Source: a virus. From it: a DNA stretch of 43,939 nucleotides. Positions 4,501 to 34,041 of this stretch are shown here, piece by piece; positions within the stretch are counted from its first letter, which is position 1; every line of letters begins with the position of its first letter. The position numbers and the translations under genes were made by a program. The stretch lies in IMG/VR virus record IMGVR_UViG_3300025881_000029, positions 1 through 43,939 of that record. The stretch is one strand, 5' to 3'. Under the pieces are notes generated by a model that saw only the letters and a program-made list of their open reading frames with translations, was not told the origin of the DNA and did no database searches.

Positions 4501-5640
4501 TTACCTTAAATCTAGGAAGGGGCTTCGGCCCCTTTCTTTGTTTATTGTAGGCAACGGATCCTCTCTGTAAAAAGGATCAAGTTCAGCGCCGTAACATGCT
4601 ACTCCCCAGTAAGATAGCAGCACTTGAAAATCCATTACGTTAAAGTAACCATCTCCATTGATATCTCCATCATCCCAGTATGGATTGTCCCAATTAGCAA
4701 GCATAAGCATAAGGTCTTCTGTGCCTACTACGTGGTCTCCATCAAGGTCTCCCACACAGTAAGGATCTTGACTTGTAATCCCTGGGCGTGATATAGGAAG
4801 TATGTCGTGGATCCGTTCAATTTGACCAGGAGTAAAATTGGTTCTACAAGAGTCTACGTAGTAATCCATATGATTATTCGGTTCATACCCATACAAAGCT
4901 GGAGGGCATATAGGATTTTCGCAACTCCAATTAAGCTTCGTTGGTGGGGTGTCGCAAACGAAGTCACCTACGTTTAAGCAATCATCCGTGTCTTCGCCGC
5001 AGAAGTCTACATTTCTAAACACATGGTGCAATCCCACAAAGTGGCCCACCTCGTGAATAAGTGTTTTGTTTTCGGTTCGTGTAGAATCAGAAAGATGCTG
5101 TCCGTATCTCCCTATCATGTCAGATCTAACCCAAACTCCGTCAAGGTCAGTGCTAGAGCTGTAAGCCGTCCAAGCAAAACCTAGTATGCTTCCACAAAAA
5201 TCAGGGAATATATGTACGTTCATGTACGCTTCTCTGTCCCATATCAGGTCTTCTATATAGTCTTCCATCCAGTTCCAACCGTTAGAGCTGTAAGGTATAC
5301 AGGTGTTGTTTTGTCCTAGTATTTCAGGAGCCACCCAAAACTCATCAAAGTCATGGTATGCAATTGACACAAGATCAAAGCTGATCATAGCTTCATCGAA
5401 CTCCTCGTTCAGGTGGTCGTGAGCATCCATGATAATATCCTCGGCTATGTAACTGTTAGGAAAGCTGTCGGTGTAGTATATGTGGTATACGTAGTCGATC
5501 TCTTCCCATTGAACTGGTTCTGGGTTGTAGCCCATCATCCTTGATTGAAGATTGGATTCCCCAAACACAACGCAAGTATCCTGACCTGCGGCTACGTACT
5601 GTAAGAGCAGGCACAGCAGGGTGATGAGGCTTAACTTCAT
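4501..5640 (-). CDS. Secreted M43 (pappalysin/cytophagalysin-like) zinc metalloprotease with C-terminal dockerin-type repeats
   Basis: The 379-residue protein begins with a classic signal peptide (KLSLITLLCLLLQYVAAG, likely cut after Gly19), so it should leave the cytoplasm. The catalytic metzincin motif HEVGHFVGLHH (residues 196-206) supplies His196, His200 and His206 as zinc ligands and Glu197 as the base. A CDTPP block (229-233) and a Met-turn at Met258 (NHMDYY) fit family M43. Several cysteines suggest disulfides. Residues 298-319 and 326-346 are two D-x-D/N-x-D-x-x-x-x-x-x-D loops, each followed by a hydrophobic helix, as in a type I dockerin duplicated calcium-binding module. It is the last gene of the late minus-strand module, 7 bases after the gene at 5648-7303. 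Possible jobs are envelope or matrix degradation at lysis or entry, or processing of virion proteins; the sequence does not decide. Confidence 0.88.
   Translation of the reverse strand: MKLSLITLLCLLLQYVAAGQDTCVVFGESNLQSRMMGYNPEPVQWEEIDYVYHIYYTDSFPNSYIAEDIIMDAHDHLNEEFDEAMISFDLVSIAYHDFDEFWVAPEILGQNNTCIPYSSNGWNWMEDYIEDLIWDREAYMNVHIFPDFCGSILGFAWTAYSSSTDLDGVWVRSDMIGRYGQHLSDSTRTENKTLIHEVGHFVGLHHVFRNVDFCGEDTDDCLNVGDFVCDTPPTKLNWSCENPICPPALYGYEPNNHMDYYVDSCRTNFTPGQIERIHDILPISRPGITSQDPYCVGDLDGDHVVGTEDLMLMLANWDNPYWDDGDINGDGYFNVMDFQVLLSYWGVACYGAELDPFYREDPLPTINKERGRSPFLDLR
4517..4545 (+). terminator. Rho-independent terminator of the nrdBA operon
   Basis: A 7-bp stem, AAGGGGC (4517-4523) with GCCCCTT (4528-4534), closes a stable TTCG loop and is followed on the plus strand by TCTTTGTTTATT. 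It lies 57 bases after the nrdA stop. It also lies inside the last codons of the convergent protease gene, so the stem is translated from the opposite strand. On the minus strand no T-run follows it. Confidence 0.8.
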
Positions 5641-5647
5641 AGTTTTA

Positions 5648-7303
5648 TTATTTTCTCACCTTCATACCGTACTTGGCTTTCTTTTTAAGACCAACTCTTC
5701 CTCCTCTCTCTAGCTTTTCTACAATAGGCATCGGGAACTCTAAGCTTATAGTTGCTTCATCAAGAGAAGAGAGAGAGAGGTTTTTATGAGTTTTTACTTT
5801 AGTTGGGGGAAGTCCTCGTTTAGCAAGGGCAGGATCTATATATGTTTCTTTAATATTCATTAAGAAATCATTCGCCTCTTTTTTTGAACTAAACCCAGTG
5901 GCCGTAGCTGTACCTCTGTGAGAAAGCATTCCGTCCTTAATAACTTTGTCAAGATCAGCCTTAGGGATCTTAAAGTAATTACTAAACTTACCCATTGTAT
6001 TTAAACCAGCATAATCAATGGAAGCTGGATTTTCTAATAGCTTTGACCCTTGCTTTTTTCCTCCTTTCTCTAAATACTTTTCGCCCTTCTCTAGTTGCTT
6101 GAGATAAATAGGGTATGAGTCCTGACTTAAGCTTCCTGGGTTTATCAAATCACCAGACTCTATTGCGTCAAACATTGTAGTGATAAGATTATGGTGCTCT
6201 CTAGAAGACCCAGTAGTAAACAATTCCTCCCCATAGTCTCCTAAGACAGGGTCTCCTTTTTTAAACTTTACAGCGCCAGTAGCTTCGTCTATAACGTCGG
6301 CCTGGTGCAGCACAGGTATTTTAGGTTTGTTTTCCAAAACCATATTCATCTGACTAACGGACCTGTCAGAGTATTGCTCTATAAAACTCGGATCTTCAAG
6401 AGCGCTGTGCTTATCGTGACGCCATTCTTTTGCGACATCTTCTATTGGGTTAGTAGTTAAATCAATGTAATCGCCACCGCCATAATCTCCAAATGCTCCA
6501 TCAACTTCACCGTAAGTTATCGACCTTGTGTTTCCCCTAGACATATCCTGGAGCTTAAAATTGCCAATTGATTCTGGCAGCTCTTTGTTTTTTTCCATAA
6601 GGGCTTCCGCTCTAATTCTTTCTGGAGTTTTTGTAGGAGCTTCGTTTTTTTCTATAGCATACATTAAGTCCGTCAAGAAGTCTTTTTCCTGTAAAGTAGC
6701 CTCCATAGGCGCAAACTCATCATCTACTAGCTCTAGGTATTCCGCTAATTCAGCAGTTGCCTGATCCCTTTGAGATGGACTGCTTAAAAGGTTGTTGTCT
6801 GATAAGTGAGCAAAAGCGTTATCGACATCTACGTCTTTTTTAATCAACTCGCCAATTTCCCCAACTATACGATTCTCCTCTCCTGGGTATCTACCTGCAA
6901 AAGACCTAAAGGAACTTGCGTTACCAGGCACAAAAGCAAAAGCCGCTGCTGCGGCGCTGAGCCCAGCCCCTCCAGCTGCCTGTCTTAAATCACCTTCTTT
7001 AGCTCCTTTATACAGCATCCGAAGCCCCTCAGCCATGTCCATCGCGTCTCCTACTGGAGAAACAAATTTCATAGGAGAGACCATCTCTGCTGATCCAGAG
7101 GCCATAGGGTCGAACCCCAACTCTTTATTCTGTCTCTCTTCCTCTCCTTTACCGATTAAAGTCCTCTCAAAAGCTTGCATCTCTTGCTGTCCCTGTAAAC
7201 GGGGATCCATAGGTACCTGAGTCCTTGTAGACTCAGAGGTTGCGTATCTGGGAGGATCTGTAGGCAAGTGAACCCCACCGTGATTAAACTTTTGTAACCT
7301 CAT
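5648..7303 (-). CDS. Putative virion (internal/ejection) protein
   Basis: This 551-residue protein has no enzymatic motif I recognise. It starts with a short basic peptide (MRLQKFNHGGVHLPTDPP) and ends with RGGRVGLKKKAKYGMKVRK. Glycine-rich GGRV-type motifs at chain ends are also present in the 306-residue virion protein further upstream. An Ala-rich stretch around residues 108-127 could be a hydrophobic helix; the rest is acidic and helical. Its start overlaps the stop of the holin gene (ATGA), so it is probably co-translated with it. Position after the ejection proteins and holin suggests a protein carried in the capsid or released at lysis. A toxin or secreted effector cannot be excluded. 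Confidence 0.7.
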   Translation of the reverse strand: MRLQKFNHGGVHLPTDPPRYATSESTRTQVPMDPRLQGQQEMQAFERTLIGKGEEERQNKELGFDPMASGSAEMVSPMKFVSPVGDAMDMAEGLRMLYKGAKEGDLRQAAGGAGLSAAAAAFAFVPGNASSFRSFAGRYPGEENRIVGEIGELIKKDVDVDNAFAHLSDNNLLSSPSQRDQATAELAEYLELVDDEFAPMEATLQEKDFLTDLMYAIEKNEAPTKTPERIRAEALMEKNKELPESIGNFKLQDMSRGNTRSITYGEVDGAFGDYGGGDYIDLTTNPIEDVAKEWRHDKHSALEDPSFIEQYSDRSVSQMNMVLENKPKIPVLHQADVIDEATGAVKFKKGDPVLGDYGEELFTTGSSREHHNLITTMFDAIESGDLINPGSLSQDSYPIYLKQLEKGEKYLEKGGKKQGSKLLENPASIDYAGLNTMGKFSNYFKIPKADLDKVIKDGMLSHRGTATATGFSSKKEANDFLMNIKETYIDPALAKRGLPPTKVKTHKNLSLSSLDEATISLEFPMPIVEKLERGGRVGLKKKAKYGMKVRK

Positions 7304-7734
7304 TTTCTAGTTTTTTCAATAGTTCTTCCAGCAAAATAAGCTCCAAAGACAGTAAGCATAAGTATCTCTAACAAAGATATGTAACTTTCTCTAGGCATAA
7401 ATTCATTGTCTAGACCGTCCCATATCATAACCCCCATAAAGAACACCATTAAAACAATCAACACCGCAGGGCGGATAACCTTAGCGAGCTTAACATCGCT
7501 AGACATATCGGCCTCCCACCTGCGGGATACATTGTTCTGGTACTCTATTTCAGCCTGAATCGCTGCCTGGGCCGCCGCAGGATCTACCCCTGGTTCTTTA
7601 CTAAGCAAGTTCTTAACCACGCCTAAAGCCCCGCTATCAGGAAGCAAGCCCCCTACGGTAGAGAGAACACCAGGGGCATTAGCCGCAAGCCAAATCCCTA
7701 GCTTCGTGTCCCTTATTTTCTTTTTTTCTTCCAT
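7300..7734 (-). CDS. Holin of the 3-TM / gene-transfer-agent holin type
   Basis: The 144-residue protein has an N-terminal amphipathic stretch with a hydrophobic segment (about 12-32), then a helix containing SRRWEADMSSDVKLAKVIRP, then two clear membrane helices (about 87-108 and 117-136) and a short charged tail. The RRWEADM-S-D-x-x-L-x-K-x-IRP signature before the first strong helix is what I associate with the 3-TM holin family known from gene-transfer agents and many marine phages. Holins permeabilise the inner membrane at lysis. It lies 3 bases downstream of the giant ejection protein gene. No endolysin is visible next to it. Confidence 0.8.
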   Translation of the reverse strand: MEEKKKIRDTKLGIWLAANAPGVLSTVGGLLPDSGALGVVKNLLSKEPGVDPAAAQAAIQAEIEYQNNVSRRWEADMSSDVKLAKVIRPAVLIVLMVFFMGVMIWDGLDNEFMPRESYISLLEILMLTVFGAYFAGRTIEKTRK

Positions 7735-30763: not shown

Positions 30764-31444
30764 TTAAATGAATCTATTCTTTAACGCGTTGTAGTTTTGG
30801 AGGACTTCGGAAGCGGTGAGGGCGCGGTTGTAGATTTTTATTTGTGCTATATTTCCGTTTAAATACAATCCTATTGTTTCCCTTCCAATATTGGTTGATA
30901 TTGTTCCGCCAGTACTAAATGAGCCCACATCTTCAGTTGAGGAAACATCTAATTGACCGTTTAAGTATATTTTATAATCATTGCCTGATTTTGTTCCTGT
31001 AACACAATACCAAGTATTTACTGATAGAGAGGTAGTAGTGGACAACACCTTATCTGCGGAAGGCGTTAGAAATATATAGTTAGCTTTGTTTGAATTAATT
31101 CTAAATTTGCTGAAGATGTGAGTTAACCCGTCTCTTTCTGAATACAAGGTTTGATTTGAACTAATGTTTGACCCTGTTTTAAACCAAATTGATATACTAG
31201 AGTTTGTAGTCCCCGCAGTAGTTGCAGGAGGGAATGATATAGACGTATAATCATTCACTCCATCGAAGTCAATACTACCCCCATTCGCACTATCATATGT
31301 AGGCCCGTTAGTCAACGTCCCATCATTACCCCCAATCAAATCTGACCACGTAGTACCCGTCCCAGGATAGCTCTTATCGTTTCCTGAATCCACATAGAAT
31401 ACCAGCCCATCCGTCACTATGCTTGGTCCATATTTGTAACTCAT
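30764..31444 (-). CDS. LamG / concanavalin A-like receptor-binding protein (copy 2)
   Basis: This 226-residue protein is one beta-sandwich domain of the LamG/concanavalin A-like type, which in phages often binds glycans on the host surface. Typical elements are VTDGLVFYVDSGNDKSYPG, the GSIDFDGVNDYTSI strand, the SISIWFKT strand, a YKIYLNGQL strand and the end block GNIAQIKIYNRALTASEVLQN. It overlaps the upstream paralogue by ATGA. The two proteins agree strongly at both ends and differ in the middle, the pattern expected if the binding loops diversify while the scaffold is kept. It is likely a tail fibre or tip component. Confidence 0.8.
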   Translation of the reverse strand: MSYKYGPSIVTDGLVFYVDSGNDKSYPGTGTTWSDLIGGNDGTLTNGPTYDSANGGSIDFDGVNDYTSISFPPATTAGTTNSSISIWFKTGSNISSNQTLYSERDGLTHIFSKFRINSNKANYIFLTPSADKVLSTTTSLSVNTWYCVTGTKSGNDYKIYLNGQLDVSSTEDVGSFSTGGTISTNIGRETIGLYLNGNIAQIKIYNRALTASEVLQNYNALKNRFI

Positions 31445-31510
31445 ATGAATCTGTTTTTAAGGGCATTGTAGTTTTGGGTGATTTCTGTGGAGGAGAGGGC
31501 GCGGTTGTAG
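30818..31510 (-). repeat. Tandem duplication of LamG genes with an identical 16-base block
   Basis: The 3' coding ends of both LamG genes contain the identical plus-strand string GAGGGCGCGGTTGTAG (30818-30833 and 31495-31510). Similar stretches flank it (GTTGTAGTTTTGG and ATTGTAGTTTTGG) and occur at the 5' coding ends. The GC-rich block stands out from its AT-rich surroundings and could support recombination between copies. Confidence 0.7.
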
Positions 31511-32139
31511 GCTTGTACTATAGCTATATTTCCATCAACATAGTCTAATCTATTATTAGAGCTATCTATACGACTCCCTATAGACCAACTTTGAGAAGAA
31601 GCTGGTTCACCAGAGGTGTCACTTGTAGCTACTGAACCAAAAGAGACTCCATCGATCCAACACTCATAGCTAACTCCTTGGTTAAAATTAACAACTATAT
31701 TATGCCATGTGCTTGAAGTGATGACAGGGGTTGTAGAGAAATCTCCGAGTGAATTGTCTCCTTGTGTTTGAATAAACAGTTCGCCTGTAGTGTCATAAAT
31801 AGCTATCCCATTAAATTGGTCCCAAAAAAATAATCCTTGAGAGATACCTGAAACGTCAAGGACATCAACCTTAAACCAAATGTTATATGATTGTGCCGTG
31901 CTAGACCCCCCTCCATTGGATATTCCTGTGCCTCCAACATAATCATCAGTCCCATCAAATACAATACTACCCCCATTTCCAGAGTCAAATGTAGGGCCAT
32001 TAGTCAATGTTCCATCATTGCTACCCGCTAAATCTGTCCAAGTAGTCCCACTACCAGGATATGAGTTACTGTTCCCTGCGTCTACATAGAATACTAGCCC
32101 ATCGGTTACGATAGGTGCGTTATTTGCAAAACCACCCAT
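31441..32139 (-). CDS. LamG / concanavalin A-like receptor-binding protein (copy 1)
   Basis: The 232-residue protein has the same plan as its neighbour: VTDGLVFYVDAGNSNSYPG at the start, GSIVFDGTDDYVGG, YNIWFKV, WHNIVVNFNQG, and the end block GNIAIVQAYNRALSSTEITQN. It begins immediately after the stop of the 85-residue gene with no gap. Central residues differ clearly from those of the second copy. The probable function is glycan recognition on the host envelope or capsule. Which carbohydrate is bound cannot be read from the sequence. Confidence 0.8.
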   Translation of the reverse strand: MGGFANNAPIVTDGLVFYVDAGNSNSYPGSGTTWTDLAGSNDGTLTNGPTFDSGNGGSIVFDGTDDYVGGTGISNGGGSSTAQSYNIWFKVDVLDVSGISQGLFFWDQFNGIAIYDTTGELFIQTQGDNSLGDFSTTPVITSSTWHNIVVNFNQGVSYECWIDGVSFGSVATSDTSGEPASSQSWSIGSRIDSSNNRLDYVDGNIAIVQAYNRALSSTEITQNYNALKNRFI

Positions 32140-32664: not shown

Positions 32665-34041
32665 TTAAGTTGAGTAGAAAAAAACGAACGTAGTCGGTGC
32701 TCCATTTTGATTATCAGACAAACCCCAAACATCATTAGACGCTATTGCTCCAGAAGAGACAAGGGTCGGCGATGTGACATAATACCCAGTAGTCCCTCCA
32801 ATCCTGCCGTAAAGCTCATAACCGACATAAAACAAATTGCCTCCTTTTTTTATAACAGAGCTGGTCATAAAGTTGTAATCCCTCAATACGGACAAACCTT
32901 CCCAGTCGGAGTCCGTGCCTGACCTTACATGGTCGCCACTCTTTTGGTCTGTGGTGTTGCCCGTCATGGCGACGTAATAATTACCGTCTCCAGCAAAATA
33001 AAGATGCCCGCTTGTGTTTATGAGTAAACTAAAGTTATCGTTAATCGCAATGTCGGACCAGTCGGTCTGAAGAGTCCCGCCAACCGTACCTATTTGAACA
33101 GGTATTGTTTGAGTTGTCGTAATGTTACCACCCATAGGTTCATTACTAGCGCATTTCCCCCAAGCAAAAGCTCTTCCGTTCTGTAGAGCTCCGACGTTGT
33201 TTTGACTTCCTCTTAATAGAGTAAAACCAGAATTCGTTCCGCCGACTAAATTCGTGCTATCTACGGCGGTCCAGGTGGTTTGGTTGCCAGAAGTGGCTCC
33301 GTTTCCATTCATCCCGTTCGTATTACTTCCGCAAGCGTAAAGAACGTTGTTGCTTGTTTTTATAGCGTAAGAGTTATATCGAGCAGTAAAAACACTAACC
33401 CAGTCAGAGTCGGTACCTATCTGAACGAAGAAATTATTGGAATAAGCGGCAGTGGTATCTCCCCTGCCCAACGATCCGTAGCCATTTGAACCGCCAGCGT
33501 AAAGCTTTCCGCTATTTATGCCAAGCCAAGCGTTCTCGTTCGTTACATCTATATCTGTCCATGCAGTGTCTGAATCACCCACGCCCGTCACTTGGTTCCA
33601 AACCCTCCGATCTACATTAGAGCCGCCGCTTGTTGAGTTCCCTCCATAATTTGCGCTCGTTGCAATTCTCCAAAGTTTCCCCGCATTATCAATTATCCAC
33701 GATGAATACTTAGCATAAACAATTTTAGAGGGTGTCCCCATCCCAACGGGTAAAACGTCTTTTACTATCTGTAGAAGACCGTCAACATCCGAAGCTGTAT
33801 TAACCACCTGATCAGTGCCTAAAACAAACCCAGGACTATTATCGGAATAAGACCCTCGACTTCCGTCTATTGAATTAACGTTATGCCCCCCTCTTTTTAT
33901 AAGCCCAGTTGTAGGTACGGTTTCTGTATACGTTCCAGCCCCCGTTAACGGGTTGTAAGCCCCTCCAGAGGCGATGTCCTGACCGTTTATCGAAGCTATA
34001 TTTGCCATGTCTATTCCGTTATATGATGTGATATCTGGCAT
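32665..34041 (-). CDS. RCC1-type beta-propeller tail protein
   Basis: After an N-terminal segment of the MPDITSYNGIDMANIASINGQ kind, known from tail-tip proteins of marine phages, the 458-residue chain has repeated strands of the RCC1 propeller style. Examples are LWRIATSANYGG, LYAGGSNGYGSLGRGD, LYACGSNTNGMNGNG, AFAWGKCASNEPMGG, LYFAGDGNYYVAMTGN and LFYVGYELYGRIGG, each roughly 50-60 residues apart. Six or seven blades would close a propeller. In eukaryotes RCC1 binds chromatin; in phages such propellers are probably binding platforms at the tail tip. It is coupled to the collagen-like fibre gene (TAATG). An additional TATATTTG lies 135 bases upstream inside the fibre gene. Confidence 0.75.
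   Translation of the reverse strand: MPDITSYNGIDMANIASINGQDIASGGAYNPLTGAGTYTETVPTTGLIKRGGHNVNSIDGSRGSYSDNSPGFVLGTDQVVNTASDVDGLLQIVKDVLPVGMGTPSKIVYAKYSSWIIDNAGKLWRIATSANYGGNSTSGGSNVDRRVWNQVTGVGDSDTAWTDIDVTNENAWLGINSGKLYAGGSNGYGSLGRGDTTAAYSNNFFVQIGTDSDWVSVFTARYNSYAIKTSNNVLYACGSNTNGMNGNGATSGNQTTWTAVDSTNLVGGTNSGFTLLRGSQNNVGALQNGRAFAWGKCASNEPMGGNITTTQTIPVQIGTVGGTLQTDWSDIAINDNFSLLINTSGHLYFAGDGNYYVAMTGNTTDQKSGDHVRSGTDSDWEGLSVLRDYNFMTSSVIKKGGNLFYVGYELYGRIGGTTGYYVTSPTLVSSGAIASNDVWGLSDNQNGAPTTFVFFYST

Follow-up and report, generated by a model that had tools for sequence, protein, structure and literature searches.

A phage-encoded M43 (pappalysin-family) metalloprotease with a predicted export signal, encoded as the last late gene of a Bacteroidota podovirus

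Pappalysin-type zinc proteases are known from bacteria and humans. The bacterial members (peptidase family M43), among them mirolysin of Tannerella forsythia, ulilysin and cytophagalysin, share with the phage protein described here a common fold, an HExxH zinc site, a Met-turn with a tyrosine switch, a two-disulfide core and a short prosegment bearing a cysteine. In promirolysin, Cys23 of the 34-residue prosegment ligates the zinc (PMC6949598), and a T9SS domain has been suggested for cytophagalysin (PMC11674741). A secreted metzincin of phage origin is encoded after the holin and lysin in Listeria prophages and raises sensitivity to phage lysis (PMC8235301). This system, Mtz-Tim, resembles the present locus in that a secreted metzincin is encoded with phage lysis genes and an accessory lysis role has been proposed (PMC8235301), but it belongs to a host with a Gram-positive envelope and includes a TIMP-like partner, the likeness lying in the metzincin fold. 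Cryophage is likewise a Bacteroidota phage coding for exported enzymes; its T9SS cargo, for which the authors suggested effects on inter-strain competition or superinfection, comprises an endoglucanase, a GH39 and a PA14 protein with type A sorting domains (PMC7468147), whereas the protein studied here is a protease lacking such a domain. In gut phages, T9SS sorting domains occur near BACON proteins (PMC6949934). Finally, the zinc metallopeptidase of the Maribacter phages Molly and Colly is a metzincin-fold protease in flavobacterial phages, but differs in its length of only 199 aa, its lipoprotein-type N-terminus, its annotation as a matrixin family member and its weak structural match (Molly; PMC8776804).

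The window analysed here, a 43,939-base IMG/VR virus contig taken at its full length (IMGVR_UViG_3300025881_000029), belongs to a Bacteroidota podovirus akin to Cellulophaga phage phi38:1. The nearest named relatives of its terminase and capsid are the spring-water podovirus MW202828, Maribacter phage Panino, the Flavobacterium phages vB_FspP_elemo and the Cellulophaga phages phi38:1 and Calle, relatives that make a Bacteroidota host very probable. The late structural genes share the minus strand with the M43 gene; helicase, endonuclease and class I ribonucleotide reductase genes occupy the opposite strand. The late region also includes two large tail-fibre-like proteins with collagen triple-helix repeats (PF01391; 34041–39883), an RCC1-like repeat protein among the structural genes (32665–34041) and two adjoining LamG/concanavalin-like lectin proteins (30764–32139), which may be carbohydrate-binding parts of the virion.

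The M43 coding sequence (4501–5640, minus strand; 379 aa) closes the late operon of this tailed phage, near the holin gene (7300–7734, minus strand; phrog_3427, E=1.1e-17). The original prediction had placed it right after the holin region as the last late gene. Its place at the end of the late operon holds, but in the window an open reading frame for a 551-aa late product with no assigned role (5648–7303, minus strand) separates holin and M43, the start codon of the latter lying 7 nt past its stop. A homologue of this gene occupies the same place in L029 and L289; in most relatives the M43 gene follows the holin directly. An assembly join at the locus, considered at the outset, was rejected: the M43–nrdA junction is 99–100% identical in L014/L038 (a contig of another sample), and relatives keep the gene order. 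Mis-binned bacterial DNA was rejected as well, as the same record carries portal, terminase, capsid and holin genes.

The open reading frame almost certainly encodes an exported, phage-borne M43 zymogen. The predicted membership of this family was confirmed by a Pfam match to Peptidase_M43 (PF05572; 62.5 bits against a cut-off of 23, E=5.7e-17) and by sequence matches in the PDB to pappalysin-1, pappalysin-2, mirolysin and ulilysin. An AlphaFold2 model built on an alignment of 96 homologous sequences (pLDDT 87, pTM 0.80) adopts the pappalysin fold, its top Foldseek matches being mirolysin (3.2e-14), PAPP-A2 (3.4e-14) and ulilysin (8.4e-13); a model built with only 16 close relatives reached a pLDDT of 30 and was discarded. 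Profile, alignment, model and fold match together place the metzincin catalytic domain at residues 46–288 (4777–5505; this and all further parts of the protein are encoded on the minus strand). All of the motifs named in the original prediction are present, namely the zinc-binding site HEVGHFVGLHH (residues 196–206; 5023–5055) with Glu197 as the general base, the block VCDTPPT (228–234), the Met-turn Met258 within NHMDYYVDSC, and two calcium-type loops. Across the 96 sequences H196, E197, H200 and H206 are invariant, and the zinc motif HExxHxx(G/N/S)xxH is satisfied, position 203 being mostly Gly, Ser or Asn. The Met-turn and S1' region (residues 254–266; 4843–4881) contains Met258 (94/96), Tyr260 (96/96), Asp263 (71/96) and Cys265. 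By spacing, Tyr260 and Asp263 align with the tyrosine switch (Tyr286) and the S1' aspartate (Asp289) of mirolysin, from which cleavage before Lys or Arg is predicted.

Residues 1–19 (5584–5640) form a predicted Sec signal peptide that is likely cut before Gln20. The N-terminus is hydrophobic, the model shows a helix at residues 2–18, and the Gln at the likely +1 position is invariant in 16 relatives; the secretion proposed earlier thus stands as a predicted export. The short prosegment that would follow (residues 20–45; 5506–5583) carries Cys23, the likely cysteine switch, which is found in all 57 sequences covering this position. The mature protein contains 11 cysteines, which are also present in nearly all close relatives. 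Two pairs are near-universal among the 96 sequences (C214–C245 in 95, C240–C265 in 96) and occupy the counterpart positions of the two conserved disulfides of mirolysin and ulilysin, so that bonds are presumed here too. Furthermore, C114 and C149 co-occur (both in 44 sequences, neither in 19, mixed in none), as do C221 and C229 (both in 72, mixed in two), and C295 and C349 frame the dockerin-like module. Five disulfides are predicted in total, and those at 114–149, 221–229 and 295–349 would be additions to the bacterial pattern. Since ten cysteines pair and Cys23 is left over, in parallel with promirolysin, the protein has the appearance of a cysteine-switch zymogen, although Gly is absent after Cys23: the Cys-Gly motif of bacterial pappalysins reads Cys-Val in the window protein, the second residue being Val, Ala or Ile in its family and Gly in deeper phage relatives such as L077, L294 and L214.

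The window enzyme further departs from bacterial pappalysins, apart from being encoded by a phage, in a module at residues 295–349 (4594–4758) with two F-hand-type calcium loops within about 55 residues, DLDGDHVVGTED (298–309) and DINGDGYFNVMD (326–337), both of which are retained in nearly all family members. This region had been taken for a dockerin module. The conserved loops and a match of the M43 family profile to a solved dockerin in the PDB (2y3n, E=2.1e-4) speak for that assignment, but the window protein alone stays under the curated cut-offs of the dockerin profiles (PF00404, 15.4 bits against 22.9; NF041540, 15.3 against 29), and judged by its sequence the module is best called dockerin-like, short of a proven dockerin. 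In other systems dockerins serve for docking, and the neighbouring late genes are structural, as might be expected of a virion-borne protease that cuts surface or matrix protein during entry; however, a signal peptide would take the protein out of the cytoplasm, the site of virion assembly, and no tail or baseplate domain is fused to it, which leaves such a role quite improbable. For the processing of virion proteins in the periplasm, also suggested originally, nothing was found in its favour here.

The C-terminal tail (4501–4593) begins with a conserved GAELDPFYRE and is variable thereafter in the alignment, with low model confidence. A profile search of the window protein for T9SS C-terminal sorting domains of type A, B or C found none, and by the tests run the protein appears to be no T9SS cargo, in which it would differ from cytophagalysin. 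The 3' end of the coding sequence additionally contains, on the plus strand, a terminator-like hairpin of the facing nrdAB operon (4514–4537), a strong hairpin with a TTCG loop and a T-rich tail. The same stretch encodes the last M43 residues, ERGRSPF; the hairpin is retained in some relatives (L001, L002, L004, L007), and others have unrelated tails.

Far from being a one-off, the M43 gene recurs within a single uncultured group of phages. Scans of IMG/VR revealed 19 and then 58 loci that carry it, in the same gene order in many independent contigs, full copies being 40–77% identical; the gene is present in related phages. The family alignment shows no or almost no variation in the zinc ligands, the CDTP block, NNHMDYY and the two calcium loops. 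Pairwise dN/dS of the catalytic domain, taken from pairs without saturated synonymous sites, is about 0.03–0.11, which indicates strong purifying selection on the catalytic part. Broken copies with frameshifts or stops exist in otherwise similar phages (frameshifted in L018/L067 and L019/L078/G404) and may reflect either loss or assembly error. The original view that M43 enzymes are no standard phage component is borne out by PHROGs, which contains no such family, and by 50,697 annotated phage records, which contain no close relative and a single weak match, an unannotated 7.6-kb fragment (MT837139) that was set aside.

In a tree of 104 catalytic domains the window family falls into a phage-only clade of 27 (SH-aLRT 99), longer phage M43s form a second phage-only clade (n=16; SH-aLRT 96), and the sampled enzymes of Bacteroidota, Planctomycetota and Acidobacteriota lie outside both. 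Separate origins of the two phage clades do not follow from this tree, a single clade not being rejected (p-AU 0.588). Genome contigs scanned with family peptides yielded no cellular relative, and the cellular M43 enzymes were located by a zinc-motif scan instead. Of 396 Flavobacteriales genomes, 157 have an M43 match, the closest enzyme being 39% identical over part of the domain; given the limited cellular sampling, an unsampled cellular donor is possible. With many M43 genes in hosts and a few broken copies in phages, the gene could be regarded as passively captured host cargo with no selected phage function, but the strong purifying selection, the phage-only clade and the conserved position make it very hard to credit.

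Beyond the original prediction, related phages have M43s with a T9SS-like tail, and further secreted proteins, at this junction. Downstream of the holin and on its strand there is an M43 gene in 32 of 56 distinct holin loci and a T9SS-type protein in 8 of the 56, and none of the 40 occupied loci has both; since M43 served to find most of the loci, the counts express no frequency and only the non-overlap is informative. In relatives without the short M43, the post-holin slot is often filled by a secreted protein of 686–806 aa with Cys-rich repeats and a type A T9SS tail, for which TIGR04183 scores are 32.9 (L456) and 36.9 bits (L457), and 19.9 and 20.1 bits in two others, against a cut-off of 23. 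Behind it lies a secreted protein of about 345 aa. Such signal-peptide proteins adjoin the T9SS-type protein of the slot at L454:1785-2831, L455:3033-4076 and L457:3028-4062, end in an aromatic/hydrophobic strand (GINYVII, GINYILL) that may mark a phage-encoded outer-membrane beta-barrel, and gave no usable match in Pfam.

Several kinds of tailed phage carry the long M43s (about 580–640 aa), as adjoining portal, terminase, tape-measure or amidase genes confirm. Most end in a YDxxGRxV...GVYIxKW...TKKxFVQ tail of T9SS type A-like appearance; the tail scores under the curated cut-offs, with any match at all in 3 of 15, and is called T9SS-like solely for the conserved motifs GR, GVY and TKK that it has in common with the sorting domain. 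The gene directly downstream frequently codes for a protein with a signal peptide and a type B sorting domain, in several cases above cut-off (PF13585, 50.5–60.5 bits against 27; TIGR04131, up to 45.1 in L454 against 35). At L205:3015-5556 and L294:909-3467 M43 genes occur as a tandem pair whose second member has a T9SS-like tail, and upstream of both pairs lies a third, small protein (about 250 aa) with a signal peptide and a calcium-loop motif at its end. Among 50 capsid-matched records, nine contain the short M43 (one of them broken) and four the long form; two more weak matches cover a dockerin-like stretch only. The short form is located on the late strand and the long form on the replication strand. 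This placement of the long enzymes on the replication and nucleotide-metabolism side, together with the wide use of M43 by hosts of this kind, would suit an auxiliary nutritional role, in which the infected cell would break down external protein and put the amino acids into phage production. It remains improbable for the window enzyme, which is the last late gene near the holin, with little time left, and has no T9SS tail.

That secreted proteins are repeatedly kept at this spot suggests that phages of this lineage reshape the exterior of the cells they infect. The alternation of the short M43 with T9SS-tailed secreted proteins points to the cell exterior as the common theme, and surface remodelling against adsorption ranks next after a role in release: the protease would strip the cell surface of receptors or other proteins and so keep both co-infecting phages and the phage's own progeny from adsorbing to the dying cell and its debris. 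The effects suggested by the authors for Cryophage cargo are in line with this (PMC7468147). Nevertheless, a late gene is late for exclusion, and the window form, having no T9SS signal, may not reach the cell surface before lysis; we judge this explanation unlikely. A broader proposal, to which we give some credence though the balance is against it, is that this Bacteroidota phage lineage reserves cargo slots where its late and replication operons converge, in which a Sec-exported pappalysin or type A/B T9SS proteins alternate as a small secretome that reshapes the cell exterior before lysis.

The identity of the protein is secure; what we infer is its role, be it release, entry or host alteration. 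The reading we prefer, held at a little short of an even chance, is that of a Sec-exported zymogen protease made late, which has envelope or surface proteins of the infected cell as its targets and probably helps release. From the fold, catalytic residues, conservation, purifying selection and gene position described above, we infer an export route, a latency, a timing, a target and a benefit as follows. The host Sec machinery would export the zymogen by means of its signal peptide, with Cys23 of the prosegment sitting on the catalytic zinc; removal of the prosegment would activate the endopeptidase, which would then cut before Lys or Arg. Since M43 is the last gene of the late strand, the protein would build up as infection ends, either in the periplasm or outside, and would there most likely cut envelope or surface proteins and thereby help virions to get out.

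A role in release is favoured by the M43 assignment with all catalytic residues invariant and a low dN/dS, by the presence of Cys23 wherever covered while the ten other cysteines pair, as in the mirolysin cysteine switch (PMC6949598), and by the short gap to the preceding late gene and the position downstream of the holin in loci mostly found through M43. The Listeria prophage metzincin (PMC8235301) provides a precedent, and in this lineage the same slot also holds other exported proteins. Conversely, those other occupants look like surface proteins and not lysis proteins, no TIMP-like partner was recognised for the window M43, and adjacency to the holin fits co-function or the mere end of a late operon. 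Moreover, an M43 of any type occurs in only 13 of the 50 capsid-matched records, which are partly fragments, and this, together with the frameshifted copies, implies that the gene may not be essential.

Reports of secreted proteases in phages of Gram-negative bacteria are rare, and the papers and annotated phage records searched here yielded no phage pappalysin. The T9SS-tailed relatives make phage hijacking of a host secretion system directly testable. If the proposed role in release is true, phages of abundant marine Bacteroidota would attack the host envelope at its protein layer, be it from the periplasm or from outside, which would help to explain how the outer membrane is opened and how virions exit from cells coated with secreted proteins.
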